Shown here one piece after another: positions 54,122-64,000 of a stretch of DNA of 64,000 nt. How positions within the stretch are numbered: position 1 is the first letter of the stretch; each line of letters opens with the position of its first letter. The notes under the pieces were generated by a model. That model saw nothing but the letters and a program-made list of their open reading frames with translations. It was not told the DNA's origin and made no database searches. The DNA is from Pseudoalteromonas rubra (GTDB lineage: Bacteria; Pseudomonadota; Gammaproteobacteria; Enterobacterales; Alteromonadaceae), in assembly GCF_001482385.1 (NCBI RefSeq), contig NZ_CP013611.1, positions 4,409,501 to 4,473,500 on the forward strand, in the 5' to 3' direction. Both the position numbers and the translations under genes were made by a program.

Positions 54122-54235
54122 GGTAGTCTTATTGGTCCTCTCGCAACGATAGTTCGTGAACCTGGTCAGGTCCGGAAGGAAGCAGCCACAGCGGATGACT
54201 CGTGTGCCGGGATGTGGCTGGTAAGACTGCCACCC
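54122..54235 (+). ncRNA. ffs: 4.5S RNA of the signal recognition particle
   Basis: The domain IV core is clear: CCTGGTCAGGTCCGGAAGGA onward through AGCAGCCA, containing the GGAA tetraloop and symmetric loops that bind Ffh. The 5' GGTAGTCTTA pairs with the 3' TAAGACTGCC (one G:U), closing a hairpin of about 114 nt as in E. coli. Ends are placed from this pairing. It guides Ffh to signal sequences for membrane protein insertion. It is the attachment site of the adjoining transposon and is left intact by it. Confidence 0.96.
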
Positions 54236-54259
54236 AAACTCCAAAGTTGTTGTTTGAAG

Positions 54260-54335
54260 TGTAAGTCTGCAAATTTGTAGTAAAACCCCGCATAAAAATT
54301 GAATTATAACCCTGCATAGCCTACTTTTAGATCGT
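54260..54335 (+). repeat. Transposon left-end TnsB-binding-like repeats
   Basis: Three imperfect repeats begin CTGCAAAT (54267), CCGCATAA (54288) and CTGCATAG (54312) between ffs and tnsA. Their spacing and position match the multiple TnsB sites of Tn7-like left ends. Confidence 0.6.
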
Positions 54336-54350
54336 CTCGCATATTCGGTG

Positions 54351-54986
54351 ATGGTTATGATCAGGCGTAAACTCAAACATTCCAGAATCAAAAATCTATA
54401 TAAGTTTGCAAGTCAAAAGAACAAAGCCATTTGCTTAGTTGAATCATCCTTAGAGTTCGATGCGTGCTTTCACTTTGAATACTCTCGCGAAATTAAATCC
54501 TTTGAAGCTCAACCATTAGGGTTTGAGTATGAGTTTGACGATAGAACTTGCCGCTACACGCCTGACTTTTTAATTACTCATCATGAGAAGCCGCAAAAAT
54601 ATATTGAAATTAAGCCTTACAGTAAAATCGCAAATCCTGAATTTAGGGCGCGCTTTGCGCAAAAACAGTTAGTTGCCAAAGAACAAATGGGCATTGAGCT
54701 GATATTAGTCACTGACAAACAAATTCGTGTTTATCCAACCTTAGATAATTTAAAGTTGCTGCATCGTTACTCAGGCTTTCAGTCTTTAACCGATCTTCAG
54801 CTTTCCATCATTCAGCTACTTAATCAGTGGCAAAAACTTACTATTCAAGATTTGGTAATGACCCTAAAAGCCTCTATCGGTGAGGTGCTTGCCTCGGTAT
54901 ATCGTTTATTGTCTTTAGGCAGTGTTAATTCAGACTTAAACACAGAACTTACCTTAGAATCGGTGATTTGGGCAGATGGAGTTTGA
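54351..54986 (+). CDS. tnsA: TnsA, transposon 5'-end endonuclease
   Basis: A 211-aa restriction-endonuclease-fold protein that cuts the 5' transposon strands, working with TnsB to give cut-and-paste transposition. Catalytic residues fit the family: Glu in CLVESSLEFDACFHFE (residues ~31-35), D72 in RYTPDFLI and the E86/K88 pair in YIEIKPYSK. The C-terminal part (residues ~125-211) is a winged-helix-like TnsA C domain. GTG 54348, ATG 54351 and ATG 54357 are all possible starts. It overlaps tnsB by 11 bases. Base composition is AT-richer than the chromosome before it. Confidence 0.92.
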   Translation: MVMIRRKLKHSRIKNLYKFASQKNKAICLVESSLEFDACFHFEYSREIKSFEAQPLGFEYEFDDRTCRYTPDFLITHHEKPQKYIEIKPYSKIANPEFRARFAQKQLVAKEQMGIELILVTDKQIRVYPTLDNLKLLHRYSGFQSLTDLQLSIIQLLNQWQKLTIQDLVMTLKASIGEVLASVYRLLSLGSVNSDLNTELTLESVIWADGV

Positions 54987-56817
54987 AGACGAGTTTAACT
55001 TTGAAGAAACACCGCAAAAGTTAGTTGAAACTGCCAAACCAGCAGAGCCTAACGTTCAACCTCGTGATTTAGAGTCACTGCCTATGGAAGTGCAGGATGC
55101 TACGCTTGCACGACTTAAATATGTCAAGTGGCTTAAACAGCGATTAATTGGTGGTTGGACGCAGAAAAACTTAGCACCACTACTGGCTGAAATGCCTGAA
55201 CTTCCTGGGCAAGAAAAGCCAAAGTGGCGCACTGTTGCTGGGTGGCATGCTGATTATATTAAAGCCGAGGAAGACATTCATGCTTTGATCCCAAAGCATC
55301 ATCGCAAGGGCAACCGCCAAGCCCGCACCGACACAGACAAATTCTTTGAGCTAGCTCTAACTCGTTATTTAACCAGAGAAATGCCGTCTGTTGCGTCAGC
55401 GTATCGATACTATTGCGATCAAATCGTTTTAGAAAATGACAAAGTGTTAGGTGAGCCACTAAAGCCACTCACTTATAAAGCGTTTAAAAACCGCATTGAT
55501 AACTTGCCCCAGTATGAGGTGATGGTTGAACGCTATGGCAAACGTTTAGCGGATATTGAATACAACAAAGTGATGAGCCATAAAAGGCCCACCAGAGTGC
55601 TTGAACGAGTTGAGATAGACCATACACCACTGGATCTCATTCTATTGGACGATGAACTTGATGTGCCATTGGGAAGACCAACCTTAACCTTGCTCATTGA
55701 TGTTTATAGCCACTGCGTTGTTGGCTTTTACCTTGGTTTTCAGAGTCCTGGCTATGATGCTGTGCGCAGAGCGATTAGTCATGCGATGAAGCCTAAAAGC
55801 TATCTTAAAAGTACCTATCCAAAAGTCGTAAATGAATGGCCATGTTGTGGGAAGATAGAAACTTTAGTGGTTGATAATGGTGCCGAATTTTGGTGTCAGT
55901 CATTAGAGCTTGCTTGTGAAGAGGTTGGGATAAATATTAGCTATAACCCTGTTGGCAAACCTTGGCTTAAACCCTTCGTTGAGCAGTTTTTTAAAACCAT
56001 TAACGAAATGATGCTTTCGCCATTTCCCGGTAAAACATTCTCAAACATGCTCGCAAGGCATGACTATAACCCGAAAAAAGATGCCATATTGCGTTTCAAA
56101 ACCTTTAACATGCTATTCCATAAATGGATTGTTGATGTTTATCATCAATCCACTGACGCGAGATTTAGATATATCCCCAATGAAGAGTGGAACAAAGGGT
56201 TTATTGCACTGCCTCCTGCACAGTTAACGGAACAAGATACAGACAAACTTGATGTTGTTATGTGTATGGCGAAAGAGAAAACATTGCGCAAAGGGGGTAT
56301 TAAAAATCTGCATATTAATTACGATAGCGACGAACTCTCTTCATATCGCAAGCGATACAGCCCCAAAAAGAGCATAAAGGTTAAGGTTAAAATAAACCCA
56401 GATGATCTGTCGTATGTATACGTCTACTTAGATGCGCTAGAGCACTATATAAAAGTGCCAAGCATTGACTCAGAGGGCTACACAATGGGTTTGTCGCTAA
56501 TCAGGCATAAAATCCACCTTAAGTTTCACAGAGACTACATTCAAGGCAAAGTGGATCTATTGGGGCTTGCTAAGGCGCGGCAATTTATTAATGAGCGAGT
56601 GAAAGAAGAAGCGCGACAGCTTAAAAATGTAGGGTCAAAAACCAAAGTTACTGGCACCAAAGCAATTGCTCGGGCGCAGGGCGTAGATAATACTCAAGTC
56701 AAATCCATTGCTAAAATGTCTGAAACAAAGCAAGCCGAACCAACCCCCGCTGACATTAAGCATAAAAAAGACGATGATAACTGGGATGACTTTGTCTCAG
56801 ATCTTGAGGCGTTTTAG
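54976..56817 (+). CDS. tnsB: TnsB, DDE transposase
   Basis: A 613-aa Mu/Tn7-type transposase. N-terminal HTH DNA-binding region (residues ~40-130), RNase H-like catalytic core with D215 (VEIDHTPLD), D300 (LVVDNGAEF) and E336 (KPWLKPFVEQFF), where D300 and E336 are separated by 35 residues, then a beta-barrel domain and a charged C-terminal tail ending DNWDDFVSDLEAF, a likely TnsC-contact hook. It binds the transposon ends and joins 3' ends to target DNA. It is followed by tnsC after two bases. Confidence 0.95.
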   Translation: MEFEDEFNFEETPQKLVETAKPAEPNVQPRDLESLPMEVQDATLARLKYVKWLKQRLIGGWTQKNLAPLLAEMPELPGQEKPKWRTVAGWHADYIKAEEDIHALIPKHHRKGNRQARTDTDKFFELALTRYLTREMPSVASAYRYYCDQIVLENDKVLGEPLKPLTYKAFKNRIDNLPQYEVMVERYGKRLADIEYNKVMSHKRPTRVLERVEIDHTPLDLILLDDELDVPLGRPTLTLLIDVYSHCVVGFYLGFQSPGYDAVRRAISHAMKPKSYLKSTYPKVVNEWPCCGKIETLVVDNGAEFWCQSLELACEEVGINISYNPVGKPWLKPFVEQFFKTINEMMLSPFPGKTFSNMLARHDYNPKKDAILRFKTFNMLFHKWIVDVYHQSTDARFRYIPNEEWNKGFIALPPAQLTEQDTDKLDVVMCMAKEKTLRKGGIKNLHINYDSDELSSYRKRYSPKKSIKVKVKINPDDLSYVYVYLDALEHYIKVPSIDSEGYTMGLSLIRHKIHLKFHRDYIQGKVDLLGLAKARQFINERVKEEARQLKNVGSKTKVTGTKAIARAQGVDNTQVKSIAKMSETKQAEPTPADIKHKKDDDNWDDFVSDLEAF

Positions 56818-56819
56818 GT

Positions 56820-57833
56820 ATGCTGACCGAGGCTAAAAAGGCAAAACTCAATCAATTCAAAGCGGTGTTTATTGAATACACCATACCAAAGACCATCATA
56901 AACGATTTTGACAAACTGCGTTTGCACCATGACCTGGCAGGTGAAAAGCCATGCATGATGCTAAGTGGTGATACTGGCTGTGGTAAATCTGCATTGATTA
57001 AACATTACTACGATAACAACTCACCATATTATGTTGACGGTAGACGGAAAGTCCCCGTACTGCTGAGCCGAATACCGAGTAACCCATCAATTGAATCCAC
57101 CTTAAAGCAGTTGCTGCACGACCTAGGACAGTTTGGTGCTAAATCTAGCAAACGACTTAGACATGGCAATGAAATAGCGCTCGCTGAAAGCTTAGTCGAG
57201 CAATTAAAGCGTTCAGGTACAGAGCTAATTATTATTGATGAGTTTCAAGAGCTTGTTGAAAACAATCTAGGTAAAAAGCGCCGAGACATTGCGAATCAGT
57301 TTAAATACATCAATGAAAAAGCAGGGATCTCCATTGTATTAGTCGGTATGCCTTGGATAGATCAAATAGCCGATGAGCCTCAGTGGTCATCACGGATTTT
57401 TATTCGCCGCTTTATTCCTTACTTTAAAATATCAGAGAAAAAAGAGCTTCAACTTTTTATTCGTGTGCTTAAAGGGTTTGCAAATCGACTGCCATTTTCA
57501 GACAAGCCTCGTTTTGAGGATTTGGGTATCGCATTATCACTTTTTGCCATTTCAAATGGCTGCCTTCGAAAGCTGAAAAACTTCTTAGATTCAGCACTTA
57601 CTGAAGCACTCATTAGTGATGCAGTAACGCTAAACAAGCAAAGCTTAAGTTCTGCGTTTAAGGCTTGGCGGCCAGAGCTCGGCAATGTGTTTGAGATGAA
57701 TGTGAATGAGATTCAAGGTTGTGAGGTAGAACAGTATTCCACGTTTAAACCTGATGGGCCTCAAGACGAAGACCCATTTATAGCGCCCCAGTTTTGTAAG
57801 AAAGTGCCGTTGGTAAGGCTGCTTAAAAAGTAA
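56820..57833 (+). CDS. tnsC: TnsC, AAA+ target-selection ATPase
   Basis: A 337-aa AAA+ protein with Walker A GDTGCGKSA (residues 50-58), Walker B LIIIDEFQEL (136-145) and arginine-rich sensor segment RIFIRRFIPYF. TnsC forms rings or filaments on DNA, linking the target-recognition protein (TniQ/TnsD) to TnsAB. The short form without long terminal extensions resembles those in CRISPR-associated elements. No TniQ gene follows directly, unlike classic Tn7 with tnsD. Confidence 0.94.
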   Translation: MLTEAKKAKLNQFKAVFIEYTIPKTIINDFDKLRLHHDLAGEKPCMMLSGDTGCGKSALIKHYYDNNSPYYVDGRRKVPVLLSRIPSNPSIESTLKQLLHDLGQFGAKSSKRLRHGNEIALAESLVEQLKRSGTELIIIDEFQELVENNLGKKRRDIANQFKYINEKAGISIVLVGMPWIDQIADEPQWSSRIFIRRFIPYFKISEKKELQLFIRVLKGFANRLPFSDKPRFEDLGIALSLFAISNGCLRKLKNFLDSALTEALISDAVTLNKQSLSSAFKAWRPELGNVFEMNVNEIQGCEVEQYSTFKPDGPQDEDPFIAPQFCKKVPLVRLLKK

Positions 57834-58136: not shown

Positions 58137-59693
58137 ATGACAACAACGTACATTCCGCTAGATAAATCAGAATCAGCAGAACAAATCAAACCAGAAACGA
58201 TTTTACCTAGACCTATTTATGATGACTTAGTTAATTTCATCGACATTGCGAGGGATGAAGCTAAGTCTGTAGACAAAGACTACAACAAATCAGAGCGAAG
58301 CCATAAAGCGATTTCCATCGATGGAGAGCGGGGTTCAGGCAAAACATCTATTTTAGTGAACTTAAAAAGTTACATTAAAACTACTAAACCTGAGCTACTT
58401 AACGATGTTCATATATTAGAGCCTATCGATCCTACTTTACTTGAAGACGGTGAATCACTGTTTTTGCACGTTATTGTGGCTGCAATTCTCCATGATGAGG
58501 ATATAAAAAAAGCACAATCAGGCAATGCAAATAAAGATGGTAGTTTCTCTCATACATTGGAAAAGCTCGCAAGTGCCTTAGAGTCTGTCGACGACCAAAA
58601 AGACTTACGCGGTATGGATAAAATTCGCTCACTGTACGGCAACAAACATTTGGTTAATTGTGTCACTGACTTTTTTAAAAGTACTCTAAAGCTTTTAAAC
58701 AAACATTTATTGGTGTTACCGATAGATGATGTTGATACCTCATTAAACCTCGCATTTGAAAATTTAGAGATTATACGCCGCTATTTAGTGGCGCCTTGTG
58801 TATTACCTATCGTCAGCGGAGATCGAAAACTCTATGATGAGGTTTGTTGGCGTGATTTTCATGGCCGTTTGACGAAGGATTCTTCGTATCAGGAGTTACA
58901 GGCCTTCAATATTGCGCAAGAACTAGCAAACGAATACCAACGTAAGATTTTGCCATTACCACGCCGTTTAAGCATGCCAGCAGTCGAGACCTATTGGGCT
59001 AATACAGAGATAAAATTGGGTACTGATACTGGTATGCCGTTACCGAACTTTATTGCTTGGTTAGAAATTTTCTTGGCTGGCCCTGTAAATGGCTTGGAGA
59101 ATAGTAAACTCAATATACCTGTACCATCAATACGTGCACTGACTCAATTTATCAATCATTGCGGGGACCTAATATCTAAATTGCCTAATGAGGTCACTGC
59201 TGAGCAAAGTCAACTAGCCATTAAACAGCGCTGGCAAATGCCAGAGACTAACCTTTCCGCAGTAGATAAATTTCAACACAAGTATGCCGAATTGACTAAA
59301 AGAGTAGACAGAAAATATGATGAGGCTTACAAAGAATTTGAAAAGATTGAATCAGAACCAAAAAGTGCGCTTAAGGAATTTAGTGGAAAACATGCTTCGC
59401 TGACAAAAGAGTGGGTTCATAAGCTCAAGACATATTTTCAATATGAGCCAAAGGCGGGCTCTCACTATTTGACATTGCTTGCAAAAGAGCACTGGCTTGA
59501 GTTAAAAGAACAAAAAAGCCAATTTACTTCTGTTTTTTCTACCCCATTGTTTCAGCCATTAACTCATAACTGCGGTGAGCTTAAATTATTTGACAAGCCT
59601 TATGATATGTCTGACTGGAGCCAAAAACTTTTAAAAAAACTACCAGATTTGTGGTTTGACCCCATTAAAGATAAACGGACAAGGCCTTGTTGA
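58137..59693 (+). CDS. RdrA N-terminal fragment (ATPase domain)
   Basis: This fragment of 518 codons encodes native residues 1-515 plus three residues (RPC) from the IS end. Both Walker motifs are retained, so a truncated ATPase may be made, but the C-terminal 381 residues needed for the full assembly are missing. Confidence 0.85.
   Translation: MTTTYIPLDKSESAEQIKPETILPRPIYDDLVNFIDIARDEAKSVDKDYNKSERSHKAISIDGERGSGKTSILVNLKSYIKTTKPELLNDVHILEPIDPTLLEDGESLFLHVIVAAILHDEDIKKAQSGNANKDGSFSHTLEKLASALESVDDQKDLRGMDKIRSLYGNKHLVNCVTDFFKSTLKLLNKHLLVLPIDDVDTSLNLAFENLEIIRRYLVAPCVLPIVSGDRKLYDEVCWRDFHGRLTKDSSYQELQAFNIAQELANEYQRKILPLPRRLSMPAVETYWANTEIKLGTDTGMPLPNFIAWLEIFLAGPVNGLENSKLNIPVPSIRALTQFINHCGDLISKLPNEVTAEQSQLAIKQRWQMPETNLSAVDKFQHKYAELTKRVDRKYDEAYKEFEKIESEPKSALKEFSGKHASLTKEWVHKLKTYFQYEPKAGSHYLTLLAKEHWLELKEQKSQFTSVFSTPLFQPLTHNCGELKLFDKPYDMSDWSQKLLKKLPDLWFDPIKDKRTRPC
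59674..59682 (+). repeat. 9-bp target-site duplication, left copy
   Basis: AACGGACAA directly precedes the IS left terminus and is identical to 60718-60726. Confidence 0.97.
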
Positions 59694-60717
59694 TCAAATC
59701 CAGATAACTTAGGTAACACCGAGATTTCAACTGCTTCCCTGATATTCAGGCATACCTAGCCTAGTCATTCTATTGAGTACTTTCACTTTGATCATCGCTT
59801 CAGTGTGTTGCTGATTGAATCCACGACTGACCAGCTTGTCACCCATTAGCTGTTTGTATCGGTACATTGCCGTTTCCGCCAGTGAACGTTGATGGTAGTT
59901 CACACATTTTTTCCACTCACTGCTGCCTATATGCTTTGTTAAAATGACCGCGCTGTTGCGAGCATGTCCATCCTCCCACAACTGTGCGTTACTCCTTGGT
60001 GGGATCACTGCTTCGGCCTTTTTAGCTGCTACTTCGGCATAACAGCCTCTGGTATCATAGGCACCATCTGCTTTAACTGAGCTGATCTTCCTGCGCAATG
60101 GTCTGAGTAGGTCACCCAAAACTTCTGAATCAGCTACAGACACTGTGGACAACTCAGCGCCTACGATTTGGTGTGTATCTGGATCAACTGCCAGGTGTAG
60201 CTTTCGCCATGTTCGGCGCTTGTTTGCACCATGTTTTCTTGCATGCCACTCACCATTTCCGTACACCTTCAAACCAGTGCTATCAACCACAATATCAATG
60301 CCTCCGGATGCACTGGAGTGTGGCCTATAGCGAACTGCCAGCTCTGCACTACGCTTGCACAAACAACTATAAGTTGGCGTATCCAAATCAAGCTTCATCA
60401 TTGATATTAGTGACGAAACAAAACCCTGTGCAGCTCGAAGAGACAAGCGAAATACAGCCCGCAAAGTCAGGCAGGTCTCAATTGCCAGTTCAGAGAAATG
60501 ATTAGCCCGGCCTTTACCGCCGTGATGTTGCGTGTTGTTCCACTGTTCAATCGCGTCCTCGGAAAACCAAAGTTGGATGTTACCTCTGGCGATAAGGGCT
60601 TTGTTGTATTCGCGCCAGTTGGTGATACGCTTTTCTTTCAAAGTTCAGCCTCTGTGTTTGCTTTCGAGATCTGATCACATAAGGCTAAATTAGTTCAATG
60701 ATTTAGGAAACAACGCC
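59683..60717 (-). mobile_element. IS5-family (IS903-group) insertion sequence
   Basis: A 1035-bp element with one transposase gene on the minus strand. The ends are 18-bp imperfect inverted repeats (GGCCTTGTTGATCAAATC and the complement of GATTTAGGAAACAACGCC; 13 of 18 match). A perfect 9-bp target duplication flanks it, as in the IS903 group. Its composition is less AT-rich than the cargo around it, pointing to a separate source. Confidence 0.95.
59727..60641 (-). CDS. IS5-family transposase
   Basis: A 304-aa DDE transposase, apparently intact. Catalytic residues are D120 (DIVVDSTGLKVYG), D192 (KADGAYDTRG) and E256 within R-x3-E-x6-K (RSLAETAMYRYK), the signature of IS4/IS5-type enzymes. It is transcribed against rdrA. 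A recent, potentially mobile copy is indicated by the perfect target duplication. Confidence 0.95.
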   Translation of the reverse strand: MKEKRITNWREYNKALIARGNIQLWFSEDAIEQWNNTQHHGGKGRANHFSELAIETCLTLRAVFRLSLRAAQGFVSSLISMMKLDLDTPTYSCLCKRSAELAVRYRPHSSASGGIDIVVDSTGLKVYGNGEWHARKHGANKRRTWRKLHLAVDPDTHQIVGAELSTVSVADSEVLGDLLRPLRRKISSVKADGAYDTRGCYAEVAAKKAEAVIPPRSNAQLWEDGHARNSAVILTKHIGSSEWKKCVNYHQRSLAETAMYRYKQLMGDKLVSRGFNQQHTEAMIKVKVLNRMTRLGMPEYQGSS

Positions 60718-60726
60718 AACGGACAA
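60718..60726 (+). repeat. 9-bp target-site duplication, right copy
   Basis: AACGGACAA directly follows the IS right terminus and is identical to 59674-59682. Confidence 0.97.
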
Positions 60727-60755
60727 TAGTTTCATTCCCTATCATTGATGTTGGT

Positions 60756-61871
60756 GTGCAAACTAAGAAGGGATGGAACTATTGGAATGAAGTTAAAAAC
60801 AACCCGGAGCAGAATGCGAATGTAGCAGATAAAGCTATTTTGTTGATTTCATTATGCACGCAGCGATATTTTTTTGAGAGAGCTAAACAGTCCGATATGT
60901 TAAACATCGGAAGACTATTTGAAATCATTATTGCTAGTTTAGTTTATACACCGAAGCTCGAGGATCTTGAGCGAGTGATTAGACAGGCTCCATTCCATTC
61001 AGCTTCTGCTTTGGCTCCTGCCAATACGCTAATTGTTGATGAGGAAGATAACGAAAGTAACGAAGAGTCAAACGACGGGGAGCTACGACAGCCGGACAGA
61101 AGTATTAACGTACTATTGCCCCAGCTAACGCTTGAAATTGAAAAGTGGAGAAATGAGTACAAAGTTGACCAACTAAATCTGTCACCTTGGCTAGTTTATC
61201 AAGTATTTAATAAAGTTTTTAATCAAGGGATAAGAGACAAGGTTTACGTTAATGATTCAACAAATGCAAATTTAGCAGTGCAAGCAATTGCCAAGTCATT
61301 TTATTTAATATGGTCTGCTTTTGGCTCATTTGAAAAAGGGAGATTGTTTGGCTTGCCTGAAGTAGTTGCTACAAATAATCTTAAATCGGCGAAAAACTTT
61401 GAAAGTAATGATCACTTTAATCTGAACATTAGACCATTTTCACCAACTAAAAGCTCTAGAACTGTCGCCGAGAGAGAGCGATTTGGTGAGTTGTCCAGGA
61501 CAGTTACTTATGTATTATCGAGACATCCATTAAGAGCATGGATTGAGGATGTAGTAGAGGAAGAAGAAGAATGGTTTCAAGGTTCAGAAATACAAACAAG
61601 TAAGCCTAAAAGCGAAACGAAGAAAACTACAGGAGCAACAGTTAAAGAGAGAGACAGATTTAAAGAGCGAGTCAGTGAAATGTTCGGTTTAGACTCACCT
61701 CCAAAACAACTTAGTAAGACATTTATAAAGAAAATGATGCAAGCTCAGGAGTGGGACCGAGATAAGTTCCAAGCAAGCCTACTAGTTTTGGAAAAAGAGT
61801 TTAAAGACAAATATACAAACACATTTAAAGACGCGGGTTTTGAGTGTTTTCCAGAACAAGGTAGTGACTGA
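60756..61871 (+). CDS. RdrA C-terminal fragment
   Basis: The remainder of rdrA after the IS opens in frame; the first usable initiation codon is GTG at 60756, giving 371 residues. It ends in the coupled TGATG junction with rdrB. It has no P-loop. Translation would require a transcript from the IS or readthrough. It contains an acidic stretch (DEEDNESNEESNDGE). Confidence 0.75.
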   Translation: MQTKKGWNYWNEVKNNPEQNANVADKAILLISLCTQRYFFERAKQSDMLNIGRLFEIIIASLVYTPKLEDLERVIRQAPFHSASALAPANTLIVDEEDNESNEESNDGELRQPDRSINVLLPQLTLEIEKWRNEYKVDQLNLSPWLVYQVFNKVFNQGIRDKVYVNDSTNANLAVQAIAKSFYLIWSAFGSFEKGRLFGLPEVVATNNLKSAKNFESNDHFNLNIRPFSPTKSSRTVAERERFGELSRTVTYVLSRHPLRAWIEDVVEEEEEWFQGSEIQTSKPKSETKKTTGATVKERDRFKERVSEMFGLDSPPKQLSKTFIKKMMQAQEWDRDKFQASLLVLEKEFKDKYTNTFKDAGFECFPEQGSD

Positions 61872-64000
61872 TGTTACACCGTCAATTAAGTGAGCACGCG
61901 GCAGGTTGTTTTTATAGTGATGAGCAGGTAGCAAAACACCTCTGGCAGTTTTTGCATTCATCACAAGACGATACATTTAATGACATCTGGCAATTGCTAC
62001 AAAATGAATGCTATCAATTGCTAACATCGAGTGTTGATACACGTTATCCTCGGGAGTTTAGGCTTAATGACATCCGAGCACTAATGGGTCAGCAGTGCCA
62101 TGCTGGCTTATTTGTTAGCTCTCATTTGCCATGGCTGGACGAATTAGCAGATACGTTATTGATACGCAATGGTGATTACCTGCAATTTAGAGAGTCAAAG
62201 ACCCAAGCTTATGTGCGCCTTGCCGCAGAGCTTGATCCTTCGTTATTAGTAGGCTGGCAACTTGCAGATTGGTTACAGCAAAATCCAATACCCCAAATCC
62301 ACGATATTAGGCGGGTTATTAATGCTCAATTGCCGTTTTTTGCCCCTCCTGCAAATTCGGCGAAGCCTTTTGCTGAGGGCCATGTTCATGTTTGGGGTGT
62401 TACCACTGAGAGTCTTATTTTTAATGAAATTTTGTTCCAATCTAAGCCGCTAAAAAACGGGAATGCGGTTTTGGCTAACGGTCAGCTAAGCGATGCTCAG
62501 ACAGACGAGCTATTAGTCCGAGCTAGAACCCTATTTGCTGACCTTATTAGCTTTGCAAAGACGGCCAATTGTAGCCCAGATAAGCAATTAAAGAGTGAGC
62601 AGGCTAATTCGTTCAGTCATTGGTTAAAGGAACGTGACGCGTCATTTCGAACGAGTAATGATTGGGAACTGATAGCGAAGTTGCCGCACAATATTAACGA
62701 ATTAAACTTACAATGGCTACTGGTTGAATTTGCGAAGGCAATTTGTCAACGACAGGCAAATTGCTGGTTGTGGTTGCATGTATTTTTGAGTTTTATTTAT
62801 CAAAGTTCCAGTACTTTTGAATCCACCCGAGTTGCAATACTTTGTTTTTGGCAAACGATGAATGCGCTGAGACGCCGTTTGATTATGGATGGTCAGGGGC
62901 TCTCGCGTTTTGTAGAAACTTATAATGGCAGCTATTTACGTAAAGTTGGCCAGCCTTATCAAGATAATATTCGCCGAATATTTGCAGGAAAAGGTGATGT
63001 TGCGGAAATTAAGTCTGGACTTTTTTCATTCACAGAAAAAAGTATAGAAAATTTTTCTCAAGCACTCCTTTCTTCTTCAAACGTTACAATACCCAAAGCT
63101 CCGTACATCTTTGGGGAACATGAAGTTGTTTTAAATGAAGGTACTCGTCGTTATATTGATAGTTTAGAGCGTTGGCACTATTGTGGCCACTTTTCTCGTT
63201 CACAATTAGCTGGAATAGGAAAAAGGCCTAAAGCTGATTTAAAAGAGAATTGGAAGAAAGCAGCAAAATTACTTCGTAAATTAAATTCGCAATCTGGTTG
63301 GAGTGAATCTACCTTTCTGGGAGGTAAGTTAAATCCAAGCTTTCATTTTCAACCAAATAGGTGGTTTCGAGGCCTAGATGTAGCAGGTGATGAAAATGCT
63401 CTCAAAATTGAGTATTTTGCACCAATGTTACGTTGGTTAAGATCAGGATTACATTCAAAAAGTGCAACTGAAACAGCATGCAAGGATTTTCATTTTAGCA
63501 TTCATGCGGGAGAAGATTACGCACACCCACTGTCGGGCATGCGACACATTGATGAAACTGTTCGTTTTTGTGACATGCGAGAGGGCGATAGACTTGGTCA
63601 TGCGTTAGCACTTGGTATTGAACCAGCCAAATGGGCGCAACGACAGGGTGAAATGGTACTCTATGCTGATGAGCATTTGGACAACTTAGTCTGGATGTGG
63701 CACTACGCAACGGTTTTAAGCACTCAACTTCCGCTCGCACAACAAGTGATCCCGCTGCTCGAACGGCGAATAGTTCGCTTTTACAATAAAGTTAGTTGGT
63801 TAAAACAGCCCAAGTTTCATGACGAGGTTGAGTCACAATCCGAGGCTCATCTATTTGATGCTCAAAAGGATAAGTTGACGCCAGATATTCTATATCGAGC
63901 TTGGTTGTTAAGAAGAAACTGTTATTTCCAGCTGAAAAAACTTCATGGCAACAAACCAATGTCAGCAATGGAGGTGATTGCTTTGCCTGATTGGGCGCGT
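61871..64000 (+). CDS. rdrB: RdrB, RADAR adenosine deaminase (3' partial)
   Basis: The frame is open to the window edge, 710 codons; the stop is beyond 64000. It is an adenosine-deaminase-fold protein of unusual size. Zinc ligands H171 and H173 lie in EGHVHVWG, the catalytic His/Glu in IHAGEDYAHPL (H545, E548), RLGHALALG at 574-582 (H577) and the downstream YADEHLDN segment replaces the usual DDP motif. The family forms a large shell and converts adenosine, including ATP, to inosine forms during infection. The ATG overlaps the rdrA stop (TGATG), implying coupling. The deaminase frame shows no lesion. Confidence 0.88.
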   Translation, partial: MLHRQLSEHAAGCFYSDEQVAKHLWQFLHSSQDDTFNDIWQLLQNECYQLLTSSVDTRYPREFRLNDIRALMGQQCHAGLFVSSHLPWLDELADTLLIRNGDYLQFRESKTQAYVRLAAELDPSLLVGWQLADWLQQNPIPQIHDIRRVINAQLPFFAPPANSAKPFAEGHVHVWGVTTESLIFNEILFQSKPLKNGNAVLANGQLSDAQTDELLVRARTLFADLISFAKTANCSPDKQLKSEQANSFSHWLKERDASFRTSNDWELIAKLPHNINELNLQWLLVEFAKAICQRQANCWLWLHVFLSFIYQSSSTFESTRVAILCFWQTMNALRRRLIMDGQGLSRFVETYNGSYLRKVGQPYQDNIRRIFAGKGDVAEIKSGLFSFTEKSIENFSQALLSSSNVTIPKAPYIFGEHEVVLNEGTRRYIDSLERWHYCGHFSRSQLAGIGKRPKADLKENWKKAAKLLRKLNSQSGWSESTFLGGKLNPSFHFQPNRWFRGLDVAGDENALKIEYFAPMLRWLRSGLHSKSATETACKDFHFSIHAGEDYAHPLSGMRHIDETVRFCDMREGDRLGHALALGIEPAKWAQRQGEMVLYADEHLDNLVWMWHYATVLSTQLPLAQQVIPLLERRIVRFYNKVSWLKQPKFHDEVESQSEAHLFDAQKDKLTPDILYRAWLLRRNCYFQLKKLHGNKPMSAMEVIALPDWAR

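Follow-up and report, generated by a model that had tools for sequence, protein, structure and literature searches.

RADAR cargo with a split rdrA in a CRISPR-associated transposon at ffs of Pseudoalteromonas rubra

Do the ATPase and adenosine deaminase genes that follow tnsABC beside ffs in Pseudoalteromonas rubra form a RADAR anti-phage system, and is that system functional? The locus was analyzed in a stretch of 64,000 bp (hereafter, the window), which corresponds to bases 4409501–4473500 of contig C1 in a 5.91-Mb genome of three contigs. We consider it likely that the locus is a type I-F3b CRISPR-associated transposon (CAST) at ffs, the gene for the small signal recognition particle (SRP) RNA, with RADAR as its cargo, an rdrA gene split by an insertion sequence (IS), and an RdrA C-terminal domain that was exchanged as a block.

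RADAR profiles matched both partners. The first piece of rdrA lies in an open reading frame (ORF) of 518 aa (58137–59693), which ends, at 59693, within the IS; it scored 836.5 bits against the PADLOC RdrA profile (positions 1–518 of 900) and 580.1 bits against the NCBIfam RdrA profile. The second piece, which lacks the AAA+ part of the PADLOC profile, scored 336.4 and 201.2 bits, respectively. Each piece was below the NCBIfam cut-off of 600, and the uninterrupted RdrA of a second genome of the genus (G002) was above it (837.9). RdrB reached 1137.5 bits (PADLOC) up to the window end, to which its frame is open (710 aa), and 1531.2 bits as the full-length protein. Taken together, the profile scores of the RdrA pieces and RdrB exclude a chance match. 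RdrA also matched a PDB RdrA (E 1.4e-8) and carries a Walker A motif at 63, a Walker B motif (IDD) at 196, and SGDR at 227. RdrB carries HxH (GHVHVWG at 170), HAGE (SIHAGED at 543), and RLGH (DRLGHA at 573); its H545, E548, and H577 align with H498, E501, and H530 of E. coli, and these residues, together with H171 and H173, were invariant among 20 RdrB proteins. H171 and H173 are the putative counterparts of E. coli H152 and H154. The rdrA stop codon (61869–61871) overlaps the rdrB start (61871) as TGATG. Directly after rdrB, outside the window, lies the gene for RdrD (NF041745, 284.8 bits against a cut-off of 230), a protein with several hydrophobic segments.

The initial annotation, made from the window alone, had described a P-loop ATPase of ~896 codons overlapping, as TGATG, a deaminase of more than 710 aa with the HxH, HAGE, and RLGH set. 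The overlap and the deaminase were borne out, the latter being 911 aa long in the genome, and the accessory gene that might follow past 64000 is rdrD. There is no ATPase frame of that length; two ORFs of 518 and 371 aa are separated by the IS. The span 58137–61871 comprises 3,735 bases, and subtracting the IS with one copy of its target-site duplication (TSD; 1,044 bases) leaves 897 codons including the stop, so the figure of 896 corresponds to the gene with the IS left out. The proposed RdrA/RdrB pairing stands insofar as the profiles match both proteins, but rdrA is split and the module is probably inactive here. Judged by these matches, the locus is RADAR by descent and not an intact RADAR. 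It resembles the known system (rdrA-rdrB-rdrD, RdrB of ~900 aa) in its profiles, gene order, start–stop overlap, and zinc and catalytic residues; it differs in that rdrA is split by the IS, the C-terminal domain of RdrA appears to derive from a distant RdrA lineage, and the operon is borne by a CAST.

Probable replacement of the RdrA C-terminal domain

Between the RdrA of the window and that of G002, the identity of third codon positions fell from 0.69 to 0.35 from residue 310 to the end of RdrA (2ΔlogL of 181; under the null, scanned on a coarser grid, the maximum of 100 permutations was 13.8 and that of 100 block permutations was 80.5). The low segment had sharp edges and a third-position agreement of 25–45%, and the agreement was again 72% in the first 40 codons of RdrB. 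The second RdrA piece of the window was 39–44% identical to RdrA of its own clade and 42% identical to an E. coli RdrA, whereas the AAA+ part was 73–89% identical to the clade. These comparisons indicate that the C-terminal half of RdrA was replaced between the two elements.

The same pattern was found in other close pairs, defined by ≥70% RdrB identity and ≥55% third-position identity. Fifteen of 528 pairs (33 systems), 6 of 171 pairs from a further set of 19 systems (four of these six pairs being in the first set already), and the window–G002 pair gave 18 pairs, which were reduced to 16 by dropping L115–L139 (the same contig twice) and one of two equal L140 pairs. L189 and L190 are duplicates of L116 and L118; L108 (rdrA off its contig) and L045, L187, and L195 (no adjacent ORF pair) were excluded. 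A low segment reaching the end of RdrA, with the AAA+ part and RdrB conserved, was found in 6 of the 16 non-redundant pairs. These six represent four lineages. One is the window element; in the second, Kosakonia contrasts with Silvania, E. coli, and, weakly, with Pluralibacter; the third consists of two Undibacterium, and the fourth is the pair G352–G472 (same genus as the window, step at 476). Nearly all of RdrA was replaced in two pairs (Undibacterium L110), no long replaced segment was present in five, and three were partial or unclear.

A symmetric control covered 741 pairs of 39 systems, leaving out the split copy of the window, with 0.58 as the cut-off for close and 0.45 for saturated. 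Ten pairs were close in the AAA+ part, and saturation was seen in residues 350–600 in four of them, beyond residue 600 in five, and in RdrB in none. Conversely, none of the seven pairs close in residues 350–600 was saturated in the AAA+ part or RdrB (one was beyond 600), and the three pairs close beyond 600 were saturated in no other part. For each half of RdrB, 13 pairs were close, of which two were saturated in the AAA+ part, six in residues 350–600, and seven and eight, by half, beyond 600. The control pairs share members and thus reflect few independent events, and their results point one way: by this comparison, the C-terminal domain is the exchanged part of RdrA.

Rapid divergence under phage pressure, rather than recombination, would be the other explanation for the contrast within RdrA. 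RdrA is weakly conserved outside its ATPase site according to PMC9994260, and the C-terminal amino-acid identity was lower even in pairs without a step (e.g., 71% vs. 86% for L098–L105). We regard this explanation as improbable because the third positions are saturated as well, with sharp edges and immediate recovery in RdrB, because the second piece is as distant from its own clade as from the E. coli RdrA, and because the stepless pairs retain synonymous identity.

The C-terminal domain of RdrA was proposed as the phage sensor in PMC9994260, in which the trigger could not be identified, and its exchange as a block would have the look of a swappable recognition module. Modular sensors of other defence ATPases (NACHT, PMC10952713; the plant NLR ROQ1, PMC9994260) likewise have a variable C-terminal half behind a conserved ATPase. 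They differ from the present case, in which sensing by RdrA is hypothesised and the block exchange comes from sequence comparison.

The insertion sequence in rdrA

The IS cuts RdrA after residue 515, within the C-terminal domain. Its transposase matched NCBIfam transpos_IS5_2 (347 bits against a cut-off of 140), and its termini, GGCCTTGTTG and GGCGTTGTTT, with their terminal inverted repeats and the 9-bp TSD, are those of the IS5 family. An uninterrupted rdrA adjoining rdrB is present in G002 and absent from the window. The genome contained 25 matches to the IS including fragments, of which 18 (this copy counted) were approximately full length at ≥98%, and three other copies equaled the maximal score of this copy. 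An exact 9-bp duplication was found by a script in 12 of 19 near-full copies, a count that offsets may have lowered. The insertion in rdrA is probably recent and the IS probably still spreading, because near-identical copies are many and exact 9-bp duplications are present. Decayed fragments of the same IS family (84–85%) were also observed at C1 4482237–4482668, after the CRISPR array, and at 4475170–4475434, in the interval between rdrD and xre. To judge from these fragments, the element was struck by IS earlier.

RADAR is most likely switched off in this strain, as rdrA is split and as E. coli RADAR is lost when either the ATPase site of RdrA or the deaminase site of RdrB is mutated (PMC9994260). 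RADAR could still be intact and active if the IS were a variant within the population or an assembly quirk, or if the two RdrA pieces formed a working heptamer; both pieces (starting at 58137 and 60756) otherwise share one frame, each is open, and rdrB and rdrD are intact. This is quite unlikely, given the perfect TSD and the 18 near-full IS copies in a genome of three contigs. The 518-aa protein (P0203) is tied to three contigs in the protein collection, possibly records of one genome, the second piece is without the AAA+ part of the profile, and the loss of either active site is enough to kill the E. coli system.

The transposon at ffs and its cargo

The last CRISPR spacer of the element matches ffs at 25 of 32 positions, with mismatches at 6, 12, 15, 18, 24, 26, and 27, four of the seven being at 6, 12, 18, and 24. 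The next best match of the spacer in 113,000 bases (the spacer itself excluded) was 20/32, and 10 shuffled spacers reached 19–21. The element begins TGTTGTTTGAAG at 54248, 48 bp past the protospacer, and several genomes of the genus have an identical or similar end after ffs. RADAR follows tnsC after a gap of 303 bp. Profile searches past the window recovered, besides RdrD, an Xre regulator, a DNA methylase, an I-F type TniQ (TniQ_IF), Cas8/5f, Cas7f, and Cas6f, followed by a short array in which two repeats are normal and the last, read by eye, is atypical. Neither cas1 nor cas3 was found among the profiled ORFs between tnsC and cas6, small overlapping ORFs being outside the profile set. The coordinates of the features are given in Table 1.

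Table 1. Features of the RADAR-carrying element and its attachment site in the window
Feature	Position	Strand	Description
ffs (small SRP RNA gene), attachment site	54130–54226	+	Rfam RF00169, 76.1 bits
ffs protospacer of the last CRISPR spacer	54168–54199	+	25/32 identical
tnsA-side transposon end, first bases TGTTGTTTGAAGTGTAAG	54248–54265	+	End region extends towards tnsA
tnsA	54348–54986	+	Pfam PF08722, E 1e-10
tnsB	54976–56817	+	PADLOC TnsB 124.5 bits; Pfam Mu-transpos_C 30 bits
tnsC	56820–57833	+	Pfam TniB 92.7 bits; PADLOC TnsC 27.6 bits
rdrA, first piece	58137–59682	+	AAA+ domain plus beginning of C-terminal domain; 515 complete codons
TSD AACGGACAA, left copy	59674–59682	+	Exact 9 bp
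IS5-family IS	59683–60717	-	1,035 bp, interrupts rdrA; transposase 59727–60641 (-)
TSD AACGGACAA, right copy	60718–60726	+	Exact 9 bp
rdrA, second piece	60756–61871	+	371 aa, remainder of C-terminal domain; listed from first GTG, incomplete gene
rdrB	61871–64000	+	Runs past window end; contig C1 4471371–4474106, 911 aa in genome

These features mark the element as a CRISPR-associated Tn7-like transposon of type I-F3b. The initial annotation had placed a Tn7-like element at ffs with RADAR as its first cargo after tnsABC; the site and the cargo position hold, and the specific class was missed, as the CAST features are evident only beyond the window. With the I-F3b arrangement known from other ffs elements (PMC11406308, ffs and rsmJ group), the element shares the tnsABC, xre, tniQ, cas8/5, cas7, and cas6 genes, the nuclease-less effector, two normal repeats with an atypical last repeat, the ffs guide, and a spacing of ~50 bp; it differs in having RADAR in the defence slot.

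G002 has the same arrangement at ffs, with an uninterrupted RdrA of 900 aa, an RdrB that is 90% identical, and an RdrD that is 77% identical. Its guide matches ffs at 24/32, the end lies 49 bp from the protospacer, and the element of 23,389 bp is flanked on both sides by a perfect 5-bp duplication (TCTTT). The third-position agreement between the window and G002 elements was 72–80% in the transposition and cas genes, 70% in rdrB, and 67% in rdrD, but 25–39% in four host genes just outside ffs. As the host genes beside ffs are far more diverged than the element genes, this comparison indicates that the element moved between species, with RADAR, after the hosts had split. From the CRISPR array to its far end, the G002 element (L042 5583–10923) also holds UmuC-like and endonuclease I-like genes and a umuD-looking gene (by eye), and therefore a second cargo slot exists.

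RADAR might instead form a separate island beside the transposon, given the unclean far end of the element here and the IS fragments of the region. We consider this very unlikely, since both genomes have tnsABC on one side of RADAR and xre-tniQ-cas on the other, and the perfect TSD of G002 lies outside tnsABC, RADAR, and tniQ-cas alike. That the pair belongs to another family merely resembling RADAR has a negligible chance of being right: Pfam by itself is weak (KAP_NTPase 20.5 bits, just over the cut-off of 20; A_deaminase 21 bits, below the cut-off of 27), but the RADAR models of both PADLOC and NCBIfam, the RADAR chains in the PDB, and a fold match all concur, and neither a deaminase of another family nor an ATPase devoid of RdrA homology was found.

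The putative far end in this genome is an end-like sequence with an altered terminus at ~C1 4515680, some 52 kb distant; it adjoins a remnant of an older element end, which also follows ffs in G013 and G014. Midway through the island, at ~C1 4483200, a stretch of 18 bases agrees with 3' ffs sequence at 17/18 and is possibly the trace of an earlier rearrangement. In G004 and G018 (L048 and L050), a tnsA-side end follows ffs and TniQ was not found in these genomes; the ends are probably remnants of lost elements.

Among 108 genomes of the genus, TniQ was matched in 26 (in a few of them by a decayed or weak hit) and RdrB in 21, with both present only in this genome and G002. RADAR occurs in two of seven elements with near-identical cores (TniQ 86–100%); in the slot of the other five, which hold other genes, RdrA, RdrB, and RdrD had no match. 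For more distant ffs elements, ten cargo proteins were picked by eye across four elements, and recognised defence genes occupied the same slot in three of the four: L089 carries Gabija, L090 the candidate system PDC-M62, and L091 a reverse transcriptase of RT_IV type. The slot of L092 yielded nothing beyond one 20-bit match. The defence cargo of I-F3 CASTs in PMC12452197 (CBASS, restriction–modification, retrons, and dCTP deaminases) is similarly interchangeable, and RADAR is absent from the list. In the RADAR-less element of G451, the Xre is 99% identical to that of the window element (L182 5850–6859, L002 13113–14122) and the start of the methylase is very similar, whereas the Xre of other close sister elements is just 81–84% identical; judged by these identities, parts of the element were exchanged in a mosaic fashion. 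In G408 and G494 (L180 2262–4312, L181 16223–18274), cas8/5 is broken into two ORFs, so that some of the sister elements look impaired.

Proposed mechanism and meaning

In the proposed mechanism, a guide RNA matching ffs would place the CAST downstream of ffs; the spacer, the spacing, and the end were observed, and transposition is presumed from them. The defence slot between tnsC and xre-tniQ-cas holds the rdrA-rdrB-rdrD operon. By homology with the established E. coli RADAR, a heptamer of the RdrA AAA+ protein would dock on the RdrB deaminase dodecamer and trigger the conversion of ATP to ITP upon infection. In the window copy, the apparently recent IS5-family insertion splits rdrA in the C-terminal domain and would leave RADAR off; in the sister element, from the same genus, rdrA is uninterrupted. 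Recombination would exchange the C-terminal domain as a block with the AAA+ part and RdrB fixed, a sequence pattern found in four lineages, and the simplest meaning of such an exchange would be swapped phage recognition. It is an evenly balanced proposal that the C-terminal domain is a plug-in specificity cassette, replaced en bloc with the ATPase motor and RdrB left unchanged, and that CRISPR-guided transposons ferry such systems across species and swap whole defence cassettes after tnsC, which would amount to two nested levels of cassette exchange.

Each ingredient is already known. In the literature searched (mostly main texts of open papers), no work joined RADAR with CRISPR-associated transposons or described an exchange of the RdrA C-terminal domain. 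RADAR is unnamed in the searched text of the CAST and Tn7 literature, including PMC11406308 and PMC12452197; PMC10121019 contains the term "Tn7-like" and, in its text, names RADAR once, among the systems looked for.

The RdrA C-terminal domain is the hypothesised sensor of what triggers RADAR (PMC9994260). Natural pairs that are alike in motor and deaminase and differ in the C-terminal domain, such as Kosakonia L097 with Silvania L105 and Undibacterium L113 with L114, make the sensor hypothesis a direct comparison of phage range. The element itself would be a CRISPR-guided transposon that carries RADAR across species, with one copy apparently caught soon after an IS cut its putative sensor gene.

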